The notes under the pieces were generated by a model. The model did no database searches. It saw only the letters and a list, made by a program, of their open reading frames with translations, and was not told the origin of the DNA. From Acidithiobacillus sp. AMEEHan (GTDB lineage: Bacteria; Pseudomonadota; Gammaproteobacteria; Acidithiobacillales; Acidithiobacillaceae), in NCBI RefSeq assembly GCF_030996345.1, contig NZ_CP118747.1:2230001-2294000 (forward strand): a DNA stretch of 64,000 nucleotides, read 5' to 3'. Shown one piece after another: positions 26,975 through 35,880 of this stretch. Each line of letters opens with the position of its first letter. Within the stretch, counting starts at the first letter, position 1. Both the position numbers and the translations under genes were made by a program.

Positions 26975-27077
26975 CCAGTTTACGCCGTAACCTAGCCCAA
27001 CGGGGCGAAGGACCGGGCACCCTTCCCGGTTGGTGGCGGCACCTATTCCGAAGGGAGCGCAGATAGGGGCGCATGAC

Positions 27078-28133: not shown

Positions 28134-29176
28134 ATGCAGGCCAAAAAAAGCCGCCCAGAGGCGGCAAGCTCATCATACCTGCAGAATAGTAGCCGAATTG
28201 ATAAGCCGCTGCCCAGGGGCGACAGAGATGAATTACACTTCTCTTCCGTTAGTAATTGCCGGGACACTCGGCCGATGCCACGGCAGGCAAGGTGGAGCCA
28301 GTTTGCAGGCTGGCTACAGCAACCGCGTGTCAGTAAAAGCAAAGATGGCCTGGCGCTGATCTTCGCCACATTTGGTGAGCCACGGCGCATCGACAAGGCG
28401 GTTACTACCTGCACCGCGTTGGCATTTGACTTGGAAGCCGGGCATGAACCCGGAAGCCTACACCCAGAGCAGCCGGAGGCCCTGCACCATCGACTGACAA
28501 CCGCAGGCGTCGCTCATGTCATCTGGACCACCTACAGCCACAAGCTGGAAGCCCCCGGCTTCGGCTGGTGTTGCCGGTATCGGAACCATTCGCGCCACCC
28601 TATCTAGCCGACGCGCTCAGGATCATGGCGACCCGGCTAGGGCTGGGGCAGGTTTGGGATCACAGTTGCACCAATCCGAGCAGGCTCATGTACGCGCCAG
28701 CGATACACCCGAACCGCAAAGCCGAATACAAGGCTTTCAGCTTTCTGGATGCCGAGCCGGTGGACATGGGCTTGCTGATAGGCGACGTACTGGATGCTCA
28801 GGAAGCCAAGCGCAAGCAGGAGGAAGCTCACCGCCATCAGCAGCTCCGACAGGCCCAAGCAAATCGCCTACTGCGACGCGGGGAAGGCGGCGACGTGCTA
28901 GCGCTGATCCAGCAATTCAACGAGAGCACAGATATCGCCACTGAACTTGCAGCCGCAGGCTTTCTGCAGAAGGACAAACGTTGGATTGCACCGACCAGCA
29001 AGTCTGGCGTCCCAGGCGTCACCATTTTGGCCGAAGGGCGCAAGGCTTGGTCATTCCACGAGGGCGATCCGCTGAACGATGGCCACCCGCATGACGCGTG
29101 GGACATTGCTGTTGCCTACCGATTCCAAGGCGACCGCGAGGCAGCGGTTCGGGCACTTCGGGAGGGCAAGCTATGA
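28134..29176 (+). CDS. Primase/polymerase-like replication protein (frameshifted)
   Basis: Two frames join at a run of five C (28552 to 28556): the first ends TTYSHKLEAP, the second continues RLRLVLPVSEPFAPP, and one added C gives a single protein of about 347 aa. The segments ALAFDLEAG, WTTYSHKLEAP and CTNPSRLMYAPA resemble archaeo-eukaryotic-type primase motifs found upstream of DUF927 genes. ATG 28134 has GGAGGG 8 nt before it; an ATG at 28275 would start right at the conserved part and exclude the antisense terminator. The stop overlaps the DUF927 start (ATGA). Confidence 0.7.
28143..28165 (-). terminator. Strong intrinsic terminator reading leftward
   Basis: On the minus strand a GCCGCC/GGCGGC stem (28165 to 28150, 4-nt loop) is followed by seven T (28149 to 28143). 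No minus-strand gene is annotated upstream of it, so it may end a short antisense transcript arising within 28166 to about 28400, or insulate the AlpA gene from leftward transcription. It overlaps the first codons assigned to the primase gene. Confidence 0.65.
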
Positions 29177-30990
29177 GCGAAGTTGTCCAAGAAATCATTT
29201 TCGATGAGGGAACCGGGGGAACTCAGGGAACCACATTGAAAGATAAGAGTGTTTTCGGTTCTCCAGATGGGCGAGCCTCGGGGAACTCAGGCAATCGAAA
29301 GTCCAAGAGCAAGCCCATACCTGCCTCCGACCGCCCGTGCTTTATAACCCACGATGAGCCGGAGCCACCCTACATCCGCCCAGGCCTTTGGTACCACGGA
29401 ATCAAGGATGGTGACCCGCCGATACTCACAGATACATGGATTTGCACCCCGATCTATGCCGAGGCGCAGACCTTCGGTGAGGACGGCGGCAACCATGGTC
29501 TGCTGCTGCGGTTCAAGGCGTCGTCGGGCAAGTGGCGGGTGTGGGCGATGCCGATGCACTTATTGAAGGGCGACGGTTCCGACCTACGCGGGGAACTGCT
29601 GGATCGAGGCTGGCGTCTGGACCCGAACTGCCGGGCGCTCTTTGGTCGGTGGCTTTTAGCCGAGTACCCAAAAGAGAAATTGACCGCCGTCTCATCGGTG
29701 GGGTGGACCGCGAGCAGCTTCGTTCTTCCCGCGCGGATCGTCGGCAATGATAAGCTGGTTTTCCAGAACGAGGGCGCTGCCGACCACTTCAGCACGAAAG
29801 GTACAGTGGCGGAATGGCGCGAGCAGGTCGGGCGATACCTTGCCGGGAACCCGCTCTTGATCCTGGCAGCAAGCGCGGCGCTGGCCGGGCCGTTACTGCA
29901 CCCCACCGGCAGGCAAGGCGGCGGTATCCACCTCGTTGGAGATTCCTCGACCGGCAAGTCGACTGCTCTGCAGGTAGCGGCCTCAGTATGGGGGGCACCG
30001 GACTTCACACGCACATGGCGAGCGACTGCCAACGGGCTGGAGGGCGCGGCAGGCGAGGTGAATGACACCTGTCTAATCCTCGACGAGATCAGCCAAGCCG
30101 ATCCTCGAGACGTGGGCAGCATCATCTACACCGTGGGCAACGGCACCGGCAAGGCGCGGGCGAATCGGGTGGGGCTGGCGCGGAGAACAGCGAGATGGCG
30201 AGTTATGCTCCTGTCATCCGGCGAACGTACCCTTGCAGCGCACATGGCCGAGGACCGAGGCCGGGCACCGAAAGCGGGGCAGTTGGTCCGGCTCCTCGAC
30301 ATCCCGGTCAAGCGCCAGCATGGGCTTTTCGATGAACTCCACAGTTTTCCTACTGGCGCGGCCCTGGCTGACCACTTGAAAACGGCAACGGCCAAAACCT
30401 ACGGCGTTGCAGGTCAAAGGTTCCTCGACCGACTGGTCACGGAGCGCGAGACCCTAGACCTACCCAGCCAGCTATCCGCCCTCCTCACGACTACCGACTT
30501 CCATCATGTTGATGGCCTGCACCAGCGAGCAGCCGGAGCTCTGGCCCTCTGTGCGATCGCCGGAGAGCTTGCCCGGCAATGGGGACTGTTTCCCATCAGC
30601 GATGGAGAAGGGATAGCGGCAGCAGCATTGGCCTTCCGGCTCTGGGGCAGCTTACAGACCACCGGCCGCACGGAGGACCGGCAGGTGCTACAGGCGATTG
30701 TCGACTTCATAGATCGGCATGGCGGTTCTAGGTTCCAGTCCCTACTGGCCGACGACCATCCACCAATTCGTGATCGTGCCGGGTGGGTGACCGACAACAT
30801 CTTTTACTTCACCGGGGCAGGACTGCGCGAGGCGGTAGCTGGGCACGACCTAAGCCGGGCACTGGATGCCTTGGAATCGGCAGGATGGATAGCCGAGCAC
30901 GATCCCGGCAAGCGATCCAAGAAGATGAGGGTTGAGGGGCGGCCCGTGAGTCTATACGCCATTCGCGTCGGGGAGGTGGCACATGGCTAG
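29173..30990 (+). CDS. DUF927 helicase-like protein
   Basis: 605 aa. A variable N-terminal region (about 1 to 60), then the DUF927 domain with Walker A LVGDSSTGKSTALQVAASVW (about 258) and Walker B CLILDEISQ (about 305). Families of this type are replicative helicase-like ATPases found with primases in phages, satellites and integrated elements. With the preceding primase-like gene it would form an autonomous replication module. The N-terminal codons contain several GGGAACC copies that recur downstream of the gene. Confidence 0.85.
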   Translation: MSEVVQEIIFDEGTGGTQGTTLKDKSVFGSPDGRASGNSGNRKSKSKPIPASDRPCFITHDEPEPPYIRPGLWYHGIKDGDPPILTDTWICTPIYAEAQTFGEDGGNHGLLLRFKASSGKWRVWAMPMHLLKGDGSDLRGELLDRGWRLDPNCRALFGRWLLAEYPKEKLTAVSSVGWTASSFVLPARIVGNDKLVFQNEGAADHFSTKGTVAEWREQVGRYLAGNPLLILAASAALAGPLLHPTGRQGGGIHLVGDSSTGKSTALQVAASVWGAPDFTRTWRATANGLEGAAGEVNDTCLILDEISQADPRDVGSIIYTVGNGTGKARANRVGLARRTARWRVMLLSSGERTLAAHMAEDRGRAPKAGQLVRLLDIPVKRQHGLFDELHSFPTGAALADHLKTATAKTYGVAGQRFLDRLVTERETLDLPSQLSALLTTTDFHHVDGLHQRAAGALALCAIAGELARQWGLFPISDGEGIAAAALAFRLWGSLQTTGRTEDRQVLQAIVDFIDRHGGSRFQSLLADDHPPIRDRAGWVTDNIFYFTGAGLREAVAGHDLSRALDALESAGWIAEHDPGKRSKKMRVEGRPVSLYAIRVGEVAHG

Positions 30991-31321
30991 GACACTGGCG
31001 AAGTTAATAGCTGCAATACCCAAAGTTTCCTGAGTGTTTCCTCCGGTTCCCTCAGGTCCCCTGGCTCAGGGAACCAGAAAAACCTCGGCAAATCATGCCG
31101 GTTCTCCTGGTTCCCCCGGTTCCCACACAAAACAACAGGGCTCTGCTGCCGGTTACCGGCGTACTCCGCCCTAAACAGCAGAGTTGCGACCGATTCAAAG
31201 GTTGCTGGACACCTTTTTTGCTCCTGAGAAGAAAAATGAAGATATTTGTTGCAGAATCGCTCCTGTGCAACAAGTTTGCTCAAAATCATGCCGACTTTTT
31301 TAGCGCCAGTTTAGAGATTCC
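30991..31321. repeat. Intergenic region with GGTTCCC repeats
   Basis: No gene is supported here apart from a 16-codon frame (ATG 30983 to about 31033) overlapping the DUF927 stop, perhaps the stub of a lost gene. GGTTCCC occurs at 31045 to 31051, 31109 to 31115 and 31118 to 31124, and inverted as GGGAACC at 31069 to 31075, with close variants between. The same motif lies at 29208 to 29214 and 29226 to 29232. The cluster may be a replication-initiator binding region; this is inference. Confidence 0.5.
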
Positions 31322-31882
31322 TTAGTGTACGGACTTGGGTTCTTCGGAAAATATTGGACAAACCTGCACAGGCAAAAGTCTTGTCATAATTTTTATTGCT
31401 GCTTCCTCTTCCGCTAATAATTCAGTTTCCACTCCGCTGCTTGATTTGTCATCATTGCAGGCTAGATTTTCATACTCATTTGATAGAGAGTGAGCCATAT
31501 CAATAAAAATAACTGAGTGTTGGTAAATATTTTTCTTTAGACTGGTTAAAAAATTGTTGTCAATGGCAAGAGCCTCAGAAACATATTTGCACAGCAAAAG
31601 TCTGGTTGCAGACTTGATGATTGCATTTGGTGTAAGCTCTTCATCGATATCCGCGGCAAGAAAATTTGATAAATCATTATCGCTTGCAAATGATTTTGCT
31701 AACTTCGAAAGTAGATTGGAAACAAGGTCGGTCTTGGCTTCGCTGATTATTTTGAGGCCGCGAGAAATTATTTTTGCGTACAATCTAGGGTTAATTGTCG
31801 TCTGGTTTCCGCCGTTCGACAGAACTTGGAGGGCCAGAAGTTGTGCGCAAATGTTGAGATCAGTATTCGATTTTGCAAGCAT
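31322..31882 (-). CDS. Hypothetical protein, 186 aa, AT-rich
   Basis: The ATG at 31882 has a textbook GGAGGT 5 nt upstream, so it is taken as an independent gene even though the frame is open far upstream into the ParM-like fragment. The translation is helical and acidic (LNICAQLLALQVLSNGG, ISEAKTDLVSNLLSKLAKSF, ELLAEEEAAIKIMTRLL). No membrane segment or known motif. AT-rich composition contrasts with the GC-rich fragment just upstream, pointing to a junction near 31,900. Confidence 0.55.
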   Translation of the reverse strand: MLAKSNTDLNICAQLLALQVLSNGGNQTTINPRLYAKIISRGLKIISEAKTDLVSNLLSKLAKSFASDNDLSNFLAADIDEELTPNAIIKSATRLLLCKYVSEALAIDNNFLTSLKKNIYQHSVIFIDMAHSLSNEYENLACNDDKSSSGVETELLAEEEAAIKIMTRLLPVQVCPIFSEEPKSVH

Positions 31883-32236
31883 AGTTACCTCCGGTAGGTA
31901 GAAATGACTTCCTTTACAGCGAAGCAAGGGGCACGACCAAAGCATTGGATCACTGGATGTGAACAGCATGCCCTCCTTGGCGCGAGCCAGGGTGATGACA
32001 TCAGAACCCACCTCGTACACGGTGCCGTCTACGGTGACCTTGTGGGTGTCCCGCTGGCGCCCGATGCCATCATAGAGCCGGTTGGCTGGCGCGAAGGCAG
32101 AGGCGGCGAGGAAAGTGGAGGCCGGGGTGGAGAGCTTGATGTGACCATAGCCCAAGTTGATGCCGGCGCAGAGCGGGGCTGACTGGGGCGCGGTGGCGGC
32201 TGAATGTTCTTCCTGATCTGGTGCGGGGTGCGACAT
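31883..32236 (-). pseudogene. ParM/StbA-like actin-type segregation protein, 5' fragment
   Basis: From ATG 32236 the translation has CAGINLGYGHIKLSTPAS, the first phosphate loop of actin-like ParM/StbA proteins, then VTVDGTVYEVGSDVITLAR, matching the next conserved block. After about 110 residues similarity ends and the frame runs into the unrelated downstream gene. The adenosine-binding and phosphate-2 motifs are missing, so it cannot be a working filament protein. Plasmid segregation loci carry such genes beside centromere repeats; a phased repeat array lies 1.2 kb upstream. Confidence 0.6.
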
Positions 32237-32492: not shown

Positions 32493-33446
32493 TTAAGCGT
32501 CACCCTCACTGTCGTCTCCAGATGGCTGCACTTGGTTTCTTAATAAGCCCCTGCGGCTCATGGCATCTTGATCAGAGAGTAGGCTGCGGCGCAATTGCAC
32601 GAGAGATCGGTGCGTTTTGGACAATGCGCCGATTTTTTTGACGAGTTCCGAACGCGCCTTTTCCTGCTGTTGGTAGTATCGTTTGTGCTTGCCATTGCCC
32701 GTCAGGGCGCACACTTTGACTGTCATTCGGACAGGGATATGGACCACCCTGGTCGGATCCTTGTAGTCCTTGCCAAACGTGGGAGTTGCCCGTTTCGCGC
32801 CGATCCATTGGCCCATTCGCCCACGGACCCAGATAGCCCAGCGTGGCACAAAGGCGCCCGACTGTTGATGGTCGATTCGGAACCCCAAGGCTCCCTGCCT
32901 GGCCACCTTGTCATGATGCGCGCGGTTGTTTTCTGTGTTCCAGTCCCTGGTTTCTCTTTGCAAAGCAAGGACTAGCCGATTGTTCTCAATCACTTTCCAG
33001 GCGAACAGGTGGTAAGGGATGGGGGTAAAAATGCCCTCCGGGCGCGGAGAGTCAGGCATGTCCCTTGAGAGGACCGCAACCTGGCGCATAGAGAGATCGG
33101 AATAATGGTCTAGTTTTTTCTGTATCTCTATGATCTGTCGTGCCTTTCGGTACTTGAAGGAGAGTTCTGCCACCGCCAAAGAGAGGAGACGGCCCTGACC
33201 CTGAAGACCGCGATAGGAAAAAGATGCGTGTGGACAAGCCGGGCAGCGGCTACGGCAATGCGTCTGCCGGATAGACCACCCTCTCGGCGGGGTCCAAGCC
33301 AACAGGGCATCGCGACGGTCCCGCAGGTCTTGCAGATGCTCGGCAAGCAATTGCGCCTTGGGTATCCAGATTGCCAATGGGGCCAAGGGGTTATGAGGAA
33401 GATAAGTGCGTTTCCTGGTCCGCGATGGTTGCTTCTGATCCGTCAT
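32493..33446 (-). CDS. Hypothetical protein, 317 aa, next to the decamer array
   Basis: Starts at ATG 33446, directly downstream of the phased decamer array, which therefore covers its promoter. It is basic throughout, with a cysteine cluster CRSRCPACPHASF (about residue 65 to 77) that could bind zinc, and a basic C-terminal half (GKHKRYYQQQEKARSELVKK). The charge suggests nucleic-acid binding. It could be the protein that reads the array, or an unrelated plasmid gene. No family recognised. The next gene on the strand is the ParM-like fragment, 256 bp away. Confidence 0.6.
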   Translation of the reverse strand: MTDQKQPSRTRKRTYLPHNPLAPLAIWIPKAQLLAEHLQDLRDRRDALLAWTPPRGWSIRQTHCRSRCPACPHASFSYRGLQGQGRLLSLAVAELSFKYRKARQIIEIQKKLDHYSDLSMRQVAVLSRDMPDSPRPEGIFTPIPYHLFAWKVIENNRLVLALQRETRDWNTENNRAHHDKVARQGALGFRIDHQQSGAFVPRWAIWVRGRMGQWIGAKRATPTFGKDYKDPTRVVHIPVRMTVKVCALTGNGKHKRYYQQQEKARSELVKKIGALSKTHRSLVQLRRSLLSDQDAMSRRGLLRNQVQPSGDDSEGDA

Positions 33447-33460
33447 GCAATCCTCGAAAA

Positions 33461-33700
33461 AACAGATTTGCCCATAATTCCCCATTTCTCCCCGTATTCA
33501 CCCGTAACTACCCAGAGAAAAACACTTCTCCCCATACTAGCCCGCGTTTGCCCATAGTTCCCCGCATTTCCCCACATTGGCCCGCTGTTCCCCGTTGTTC
33601 CCCGTTGTTCCCCGTTGTTCCCCGTTGTTCCCCGTTGTTCCCCGTTGTTCCCCGTTGTTCCCCGTTGTTCCCCACTTCTCAACAGATTTGCCCACGTTGT
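33461..33700. repeat. Helically phased 10-bp repeat array
   Basis: From 33471 to 33700 the sequence is built of 10-bp units, 21 of 23 beginning CCC in perfect register. Eight consecutive units (33591 to 33670) are identical (CCCGTTGTTC); the outer ones are degenerate. The array is bracketed by the same AACAGATTTGCCCA at 33461 and 33681. On the minus strand it gives a G-run every helical turn. Layout resembles plasmid centromere (parC-like) or iteron regions; a minisatellite expansion inside it explains the identical core. Confidence 0.9.
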
Positions 33701-33748: not shown

Positions 33749-33940
33749 ATGTCTGTGGATGCCGCCACTTACGAGAGCGACGCTGATACCATTACTCTTG
33801 CACCCCACACAATGGCCGCACCACGGATCATATGGTCCAGTTCCTGGCTCTTCCGTGGACTGGATCGTGTGGGTCTACACTTCACTCTGCTTTCCACTGC
33901 CTACAATCTGGTGCGCATGGCGCGACTAGGGGTGCCGTGA
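33749..33940 (+). pseudogene. Transposase C-terminal remnant, IS5/IS1182-like
   Basis: The last 30 codons read FRGLDRVGLHFTLLSTAYN then LVRMARLGVP, closely like the C-terminal end of IS5/IS1182-type DDE transposases. The rest of the transposase is absent; the codons before about 33830 do not look related. No terminal inverted repeats were found. A decayed insertion-sequence tail. Confidence 0.6.
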
Positions 33941-34100
33941 TGGGAGCACTGCGCACAGAATTCGGTAATTCGATTAATATGACCAAAAAAACCGCTGAAA
34001 AGCCGCCCAGAGGCGCGCTCAGGCAGTCATTCTTGAGAAAACCGAAGCATTGTCAGTTTTATTGCCCGGTTTTTCAGCCTGCTAATGGGCGGTAGATAGG

Positions 34101-34389: not shown

Positions 34390-35142
34390 TCAGCTGCGCC
34401 GTATCTTCCGAGCATACATCCTCCTGGGCCGGTGCCAGTAGAACGCCAGCCATGCCTCGCCACTGTCGCCCTCTTCCTTGTCACCATCCACATGCACGAG
34501 GTCGCCACCCTCCTTCTCCATCTTGGCGAGGATGCCGCGCAGCGCTCCTCCGCTGGTGATGATCTTGGTCCCGTGGACCTGTTCGATGTACTGCGCGAGC
34601 CACTCCGGGCCGCCTGCAAGCAGATTGGATGCCTTGACCAGGTACTTCGCAGTCTCGGCGATAGCATGGCGTAGCGCGGCCCTTAGGTCCGCTGCGGAGC
34701 CATCCGCCACTGCCGCCGCATCCTTGATCTTTGGTTTGATAACCTGGATGTCGCAGACCGGGTCGTAGTCGAGGCGCATCGATTCCCGCCAGCGCCGCAC
34801 CCACTCGCTGGTCGGGACATAGCCCTTACCAAAGTAGGACGGCGGCACCATTAGCAAGCAGTGAAAATGCGGATGGGCGCTGCCATCCTCGCCGCGCGTC
34901 ACCTCTACAGCCCGTATCCAGCCATAGGCAGGCCAGTCTTTCCGATTAAGCAGACGGTGCCATCCCCGGTTCATGGCCGTGATGGTGTCGCGCAAGTCGG
35001 AGATAGCGCAGTCGCGGACGGTGAGCACGAGAAATATCCAGTGGCACTTCGGGTAGATATCCATCAATGCCACTTGCGCGGACCTTTCTGCCTGCAATGA
35101 AAGACCCCCATGACTTCTACCAAGGACTCCGGCGGGGTGCAA
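34390..35142 (-). CDS. Rolling-circle replication initiator (Rep_1-type), probably N-terminally truncated
   Basis: RCR motif 1 is seen as IFLVLTVRDC, motif 2 as AHPHFHCLLMVPPSYF (HUH histidines) and motif 3 as AETAKYLVKAS with the candidate catalytic Tyr and following Lys. Rep proteins of this family nick the plasmid double-strand origin to start rolling-circle replication. Relatives have about 60 to 100 more N-terminal residues including a CxxC segment, not found here; the frame opens with TTG 35142, and the first ATG is 35064. It is a sign of a captured small plasmid. Confidence 0.7.
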   Translation of the reverse strand: MHPAGVLGRSHGGLSLQAERSAQVALMDIYPKCHWIFLVLTVRDCAISDLRDTITAMNRGWHRLLNRKDWPAYGWIRAVEVTRGEDGSAHPHFHCLLMVPPSYFGKGYVPTSEWVRRWRESMRLDYDPVCDIQVIKPKIKDAAAVADGSAADLRAALRHAIAETAKYLVKASNLLAGGPEWLAQYIEQVHGTKIITSGGALRGILAKMEKEGGDLVHVDGDKEEGDSGEAWLAFYWHRPRRMYARKIRRS

Positions 35143-35770: not shown

Positions 35771-35880
35771 ATGTCGTCCGAACTCTCGGTGGACATTTTC
35801 AGGGGCAGTGGCTATGTCTACCGAACTCTCGGTAGACATTTTCAGGGGGGGTGATTATGTCCACCGACTTCCTCGAGACA
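35771..35880. repeat. 43-bp tandem units with internal inverted repeats
   Basis: CCGAACTCTCGG followed by ACATTTTCAGGGG occurs at 35778 to 35805 and 35821 to 35848, 43 bp apart; a third, decayed unit follows (from 35856). The second unit contains the perfect inverted repeat TGTCTACCGA-ACTC-TCGGTAGACA. Multiple spaced copies at one end are typical of IS21-family termini, so this may be an orphan IS end; an operator is the alternative. No IS21 transposase is nearby. Confidence 0.6.

Follow-up and report, generated by a model that had tools for sequence, protein, structure and literature searches.

The locus analyzed here raises the question of what a long run of phased 10-bp repeats does beside a gene of no known family and a broken actin-like gene, and which protein would bind such repeats. 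The locus lies in a 64,000-nucleotide stretch of Acidithiobacillus sp. AMEEHan DNA (hereafter, the window), and the repeats form an array on the minus strand at 33461..33700 (24 units; coding-strand consensus GAACAACGGG, with a looser core N-R-A-A-Y-R-Y then GGG). The first-pass annotation had described an exact 10-bp register with CCC at the start of 21 of 23 units, and this was confirmed: counted from 33471, the register was exact over 23 decamers, units 33521 and 33681 (starting with AAC) being the exceptions, and an extra unit at 33461 (AACAGATTTG) brought the array to 24 ungapped decamers. Position 3 of the unit was C on the forward strand in all 24 units (position 8, G, on the coding strand), position 7 of the coding strand was a pyrimidine in 24 of 24, and the GGG of the coding strand (CCC on the forward strand) was present in 21 of 24. 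Tandem Repeats Finder detected the core of the array, with a score of 179, as well as a degenerate stretch, and the lag-10 autocorrelation was high relative to Markov shuffles (z = 17.9). Elsewhere in the window, none of the ten trinucleotides tested occurred in phase in more than 8 of 23 units at any place; no similar array was found elsewhere in the genome, and in other genomes of the family the CCC-decamer pattern had nothing beyond isolated, chance-like matches. The DNA helix makes one turn in about 10.5 bp, so a 10.0-bp period drifts by about a full turn over 23 units; the earlier proposal that CCC/GGG is displayed on one helix face at every turn therefore holds locally, and fails over the whole array.

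A block of eight identical decamers (CCCGTTGTTC; 33591..33670, minus strand) probably arose by recent slippage, and this expansion, together with the location of the locus as a relic on an island, would favor reading the whole array as a non-functional minisatellite. Against that reading, the 24 units comprised sixteen distinct sequences, those outside the identical block being degenerate yet kept in register without indels, and the columns were very unequally constrained: mismatches per column among the 16 distinct units were 8, 5, 5, 12, 11, 9, 10, 0, 2 and 2, an unevenness greater than that of all 20,000 permutations (p < 5e-5). Such strongly unequal constraint is not explained by slippage alone, and the column pattern, as read from the sequence, fits a recognition constraint rather than the uniform decay of a slipped repeat. 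A minisatellite without function is accordingly considered improbable. A minus-strand ORF of 121 aa crossing the array was set aside as a coding reading, given its overlap with the array and the orf317 start and the lack of anything supporting it.

The array ends 14 bp from the start of the adjacent 317-aa gene (orf317; 32493..33446, minus strand), the position of which had been given correctly by the first-pass annotation, and a Shine-Dalgarno-like GAGGA (33451..33455, minus strand) lies 4 nt ahead of its ATG. The predicted protein is basic (pI 10.6) and carries a CxxxCPACPH motif. Following it on the same strand, the ParM/StbA-like fragment noted earlier was also verified, being an actin-like N-terminal segment only (31988..32236) that matched Pfam ALP_N over no more than residues 25-81 (E 6.5e-5); its homology to the complete ParM of the relative described below stops near 31988, and no complete actin-like ParM ATPase was found in the window. 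In frame behind this stub, an AT-rich ORF of 186 aa with its own GGAGG/ATG (31322..31882, minus strand), which matched no family, probably replaced the rest of parM. A profile search of the genome of the window yielded no ParR-like gene, and no ParR-type RHH protein was found. Since parM is reduced to a stub and the genome search gave no ParR-like gene, segregation driven by ParM cannot take place at this locus.

A rolling-circle plasmid replication protein (Rep_1; 34390..35142, minus strand; E 1.2e-53) is encoded upstream of orf317 in the same direction, and genes for a DUF927 primase and a tyrosine integrase lie on the other side of the locus. The surroundings are island DNA of plasmid origin that has partly decayed. 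A rep gene is commonly preceded by iterons and followed by par genes, and the orf317 protein is basic, so the array might be taken as a replication origin with orf317 as its initiator. However, orf317 matched no Rep family, the window has its own Rep_1 initiator, and contiguous 10-bp units are closer to parC (pB171) than to usual iterons, which are roughly 20-bp; little probability is therefore given to an iteron origin. Several other sequence features were recorded around the locus. Between the array and the Rep_1 gene, a sequence of about 230 bp (33851-34086), probably an insertion-element remnant, has several other genomic copies (77-86% identity) and occurs also in related genomes. An exact 18-bp direct repeat (AAAAGCCGCCCAGAGGCG) is found at 28146-28163 and 33998-34015, 5.85 kb apart, and a 43-bp unit occurs in two tandem copies at 35771-35856. 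Clustered GGTTCCC/GGGAACC motifs and an inverted repeat (31040-31130 and 29205-29232) flank the DUF927 primase gene and are a candidate replication origin of the integrase-primase element, and an int-alpA RNA (Rfam RF02996, 39.5 bits) lies at 26985-27054, between the integrase gene and an AlpA-like HTH gene.

An intact counterpart of the locus was found in Acidithiobacillus ferrivorans DSM 22755 (locus L014, identical in DNA to L010). It is the sole intact relative with the full layout, and its assembly carries a flag for 7% contamination. There, a decamer array is followed by orf354, whose product is 30% identical to that of orf317, then after 23 bp by a full parM, and after a further 3 bp by a gene for a 157-aa protein. 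The ParM is complete (ALP_N, 8e-15; MreB-like_C, 3e-7), and its match to NCBIfam PRTRC_D (2e-26) falls below that model's own cut-off. The 157-aa protein had no Pfam match; it carries a motif, P-L...ERL..LA..GL, common to small ParM-linked proteins of other plasmids and of an ICE-like locus, and contains two copies of the motif segment, as does a Delftia protein. Judged by this short shared motif and by gene position, it is likely a ParR-like protein.

The L014 array was located with a matrix trained on the 16 distinct units of the window, with the GGG columns omitted. Runs of eight consecutive decamers were scored on both strands of 262 kb, comprising the L014 contig, the second homologous locus with its contig, a plasmid, additional ParM loci and the remainder of the window. 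The highest-scoring run was L014 7801-7880 (24.3), abutting the orf354 start codon in the same orientation; the second best adjoined it (15.8), and the next unrelated place scored 12.8. Among periods 7 to 15, period 10 alone scored, and 3 of 5000 shuffles of the L014 promoter reached the score of the array. The order of the columns was less decisive, since 380 of 5040 column permutations scored as well, so the likeness between the two arrays lies mainly in the 10-bp period and the R-A-A-Y-R-Y core, and their motif similarity beyond the AA core is modest. TGAATAC occurred in register in both arrays, and in both loci the direct repeats lie upstream of the operon, as in parC. Taken together, the layout and the array match indicate that array, gene and parM are a conserved unit, which supports the earlier proposal of a partition-type locus; the presence of a related array at the same place also counts against the minisatellite reading. 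The comparison bears as well on the G-quadruplex that the first-pass annotation had proposed for the minus strand. The corresponding sequence motif is indeed present in the window, with GGGG every 10 nt and 25 overlapping G3N1-7 matches, but the L014 array contains no GGG run, so that G-quadruplex potential is not the shared feature and the GGG part is specific to the window. That the coding strand carries a conserved regulatory G-quadruplex is thus considered extremely unlikely.

Relatives of orf317 were found only in A. ferrivorans contigs. Profile and sequence searches returned two full-length homologues, both in A. ferrivorans DSM 22755, the second being orf346 (L015); a draw of 398 genomes from the phylum and one of 369 from the class yielded no additional homologue, and a tblastn search of orf317 against plasmids and phages, together with viral-contig scans, gave no matches. 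The orf346 protein used as a query also gave no matches, and orf354 recovered nothing from plasmids but broken remnants, present in three plasmids of A. ferrooxidans. The junction between the gene and parM persists as a remnant in A. ferrooxidans plasmids: in pACF1 (L017, 5990-6330) and p1 (L033, 46781-47104), part of the C-terminal end of a broken orf354 is retained, and in both a parM start, read by eye, follows the orf354 end and is apparently joined to a MobA/MobL gene. Neither parM nor an array adjoins orf346, and no periodicity was detected there; the predicted co-occurrence of homologues with phased repeats and an actin-like gene was therefore observed for one homologue out of two. Proteins of the family are strongly basic (pI 9.9-10.6) and share an invariant CxxxCxACPH; orf317 and orf354 matched no Pfam, PDB or other known family. 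A DUF6788-like assignment was considered for orf317 and rejected, as there was no Pfam match and DUF6788 also had no match in the genome. Because AlphaFold models built from three sequences were poor (pLDDT 42 and 57) and Foldseek searches gave no match with E below 0.1, no fold is claimed.

These features bear on which protein binds the array. The first-pass annotation had suggested that the 317-aa protein, although not a recognized ParR, could form a new adaptor/centromere pair with the array. A replacement of ParR by this protein was not supported: ParR is a small RHH protein encoded after parM, while the orf317 family (317-354 aa) is encoded before parM and has no similarity to it, so that by size, position and sequence similarity orf317 is not a ParR. 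Moreover, parM of the intact relative is followed by a gene for a ParR-like protein, and the adaptor role need not fall to the 317-aa protein. The orf317 family might nevertheless bind the array itself, either as a new centromere-binding adaptor or as an operator-binding autoregulator, with or without a motor, like StbA of R388. The array abuts the orf317-family gene in both copies that have an array, the proteins are strongly basic with an invariant cysteine motif, array and gene were kept in the window after the loss of parM and parR, and R388 StbA stabilizes its plasmid via phased repeats without its ATPase (PMC3098194). Set against this are the ParR-like protein encoded in L014, the homologue at L015 that has no array, and the absence of a recognized DNA-binding fold, the models being poor and neither PDB nor Pfam giving a match; binding by the orf317 family is a possibility we take seriously, though we hold it to be unlikely.

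Phased arrays were also found at other ParM loci. In a Diaphorobacter and a Delftia plasmid (L034 and L036), 11-bp phased arrays precede parM (z = 4.4 and 4.7), located between mobI and parM (1992-2551 and 2027-2515, respectively); they are probably unannotated parC sites. No orf317 relatives occur in these two ParM-ParR loci, so an array of the type found in the window could be the site of ParR. The ParM genes of two further loci (L026 and L027) had no 10-bp array upstream, the latter showing a weak 12-bp period. A different 10-bp phased array (TTCGCTTTCC / AAAGCGAAGG; z = 10) was observed at 5790-5960 of L032 (A. ferrivorans contig C883), preceding a 140-aa gene and a gene for a ParA/MipZ-like ATPase, with a TraI/TrwC-like relaxase-helicase gene nearby; this locus looks like an R388 stb-type system with decamers.

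The reading that we favor, with moderate confidence, is that the array is the centromere and operator (parC-like) of a type II actin-like partition locus ordered array - orf317 - parM - parR, surviving here as a relic. In known systems, parC consists of direct repeats upstream of parM, the pB171 ParR binds 10-bp repeats, and ParR wraps DNA into a coil (PMC9426499; PMC5016525). In an intact relative, cooperative coating of the decamers by a DNA-binding protein, with one unit for each turn, would wrap the promoter DNA into a nucleoprotein coil; the operon would thereby be repressed, and the coated array would present the plasmid to growing ParM filaments. The array would thus be bound by a protein and act as both centromere and operator, the binder being more likely ParR and possibly orf317. 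The orf354/orf317 gene would be an extra first gene of the operon, and the 157-aa protein of L014 its ParR. In the genome of the window, parM is reduced to its N-terminal stub and parR is missing, leaving the array and orf317; the intact orf317 frame and the constrained array columns suggest that the orf317 protein may still act as an autoregulator that binds the array. A bolder proposal, advanced only tentatively and rather doubtful, is that orf317 and orf354 represent a novel class of basic, zinc-knuckle-like proteins that bind centromeres by coating 10-bp arrays, cooperating with ParM or, in the window, outliving it. The partition locus would then have four parts, namely the array, a new protein serving as adaptor or accessory, ParM and ParR. 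If orf317 is a real part of the locus, this would be a variant of actin-based partition in which centromere and motor are separated by a gene that belongs to no known family; its hosts are acidophiles employed in biomining, for which few genetic tools exist. The window may also illustrate a decay route of a partition locus on an island, in which motor and adaptor are lost while the centromere and the first gene stay.

Compared with known systems, the locus resembles type II ParMRC (R1, pB171, pSK41) in that short direct repeats in tandem precede an operon encoding an actin-like ParM, and pB171 in particular in its 10-bp units (PMC9426499). It differs in the extra gene for a 317-354-aa protein between the array and parM, and, in the window, in the truncated parM, the absent parR and the length of the array (24 units). 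It thus likely works like, or descends from, a type II partition system, the window having neither a complete ParM nor a ParR, and L014 having a complete ParM and a likely ParR. The srpMRC system of SXT/R391 ICEs is similar in that the protein encoded after its ParM-type gene is small, basic and ParR-like and has no recognizable domain, and its centromere lies upstream of srpM; srpC, in contrast, is described as four 13-bp repeats, with no contiguous decamer array (PMC4489591). The mobI-adjacent plasmid ParM-ParR loci (L034 and L036) carry phased 11-bp arrays at the same place. The stbDRs-StbA system of R388 shares helically spaced short direct repeats (11-bp-spaced stbDRs) ahead of a gene whose product is a stability protein that binds DNA and confers stability without a motor (PMC3098194). 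Family searches gave no link between orf317 and StbA, and the next gene is ParM-like, with no StbB-like gene. For a protein that binds repeats and acts without its motor, the nearest precedent is R388 StbA-stbDR (PMC3098194).
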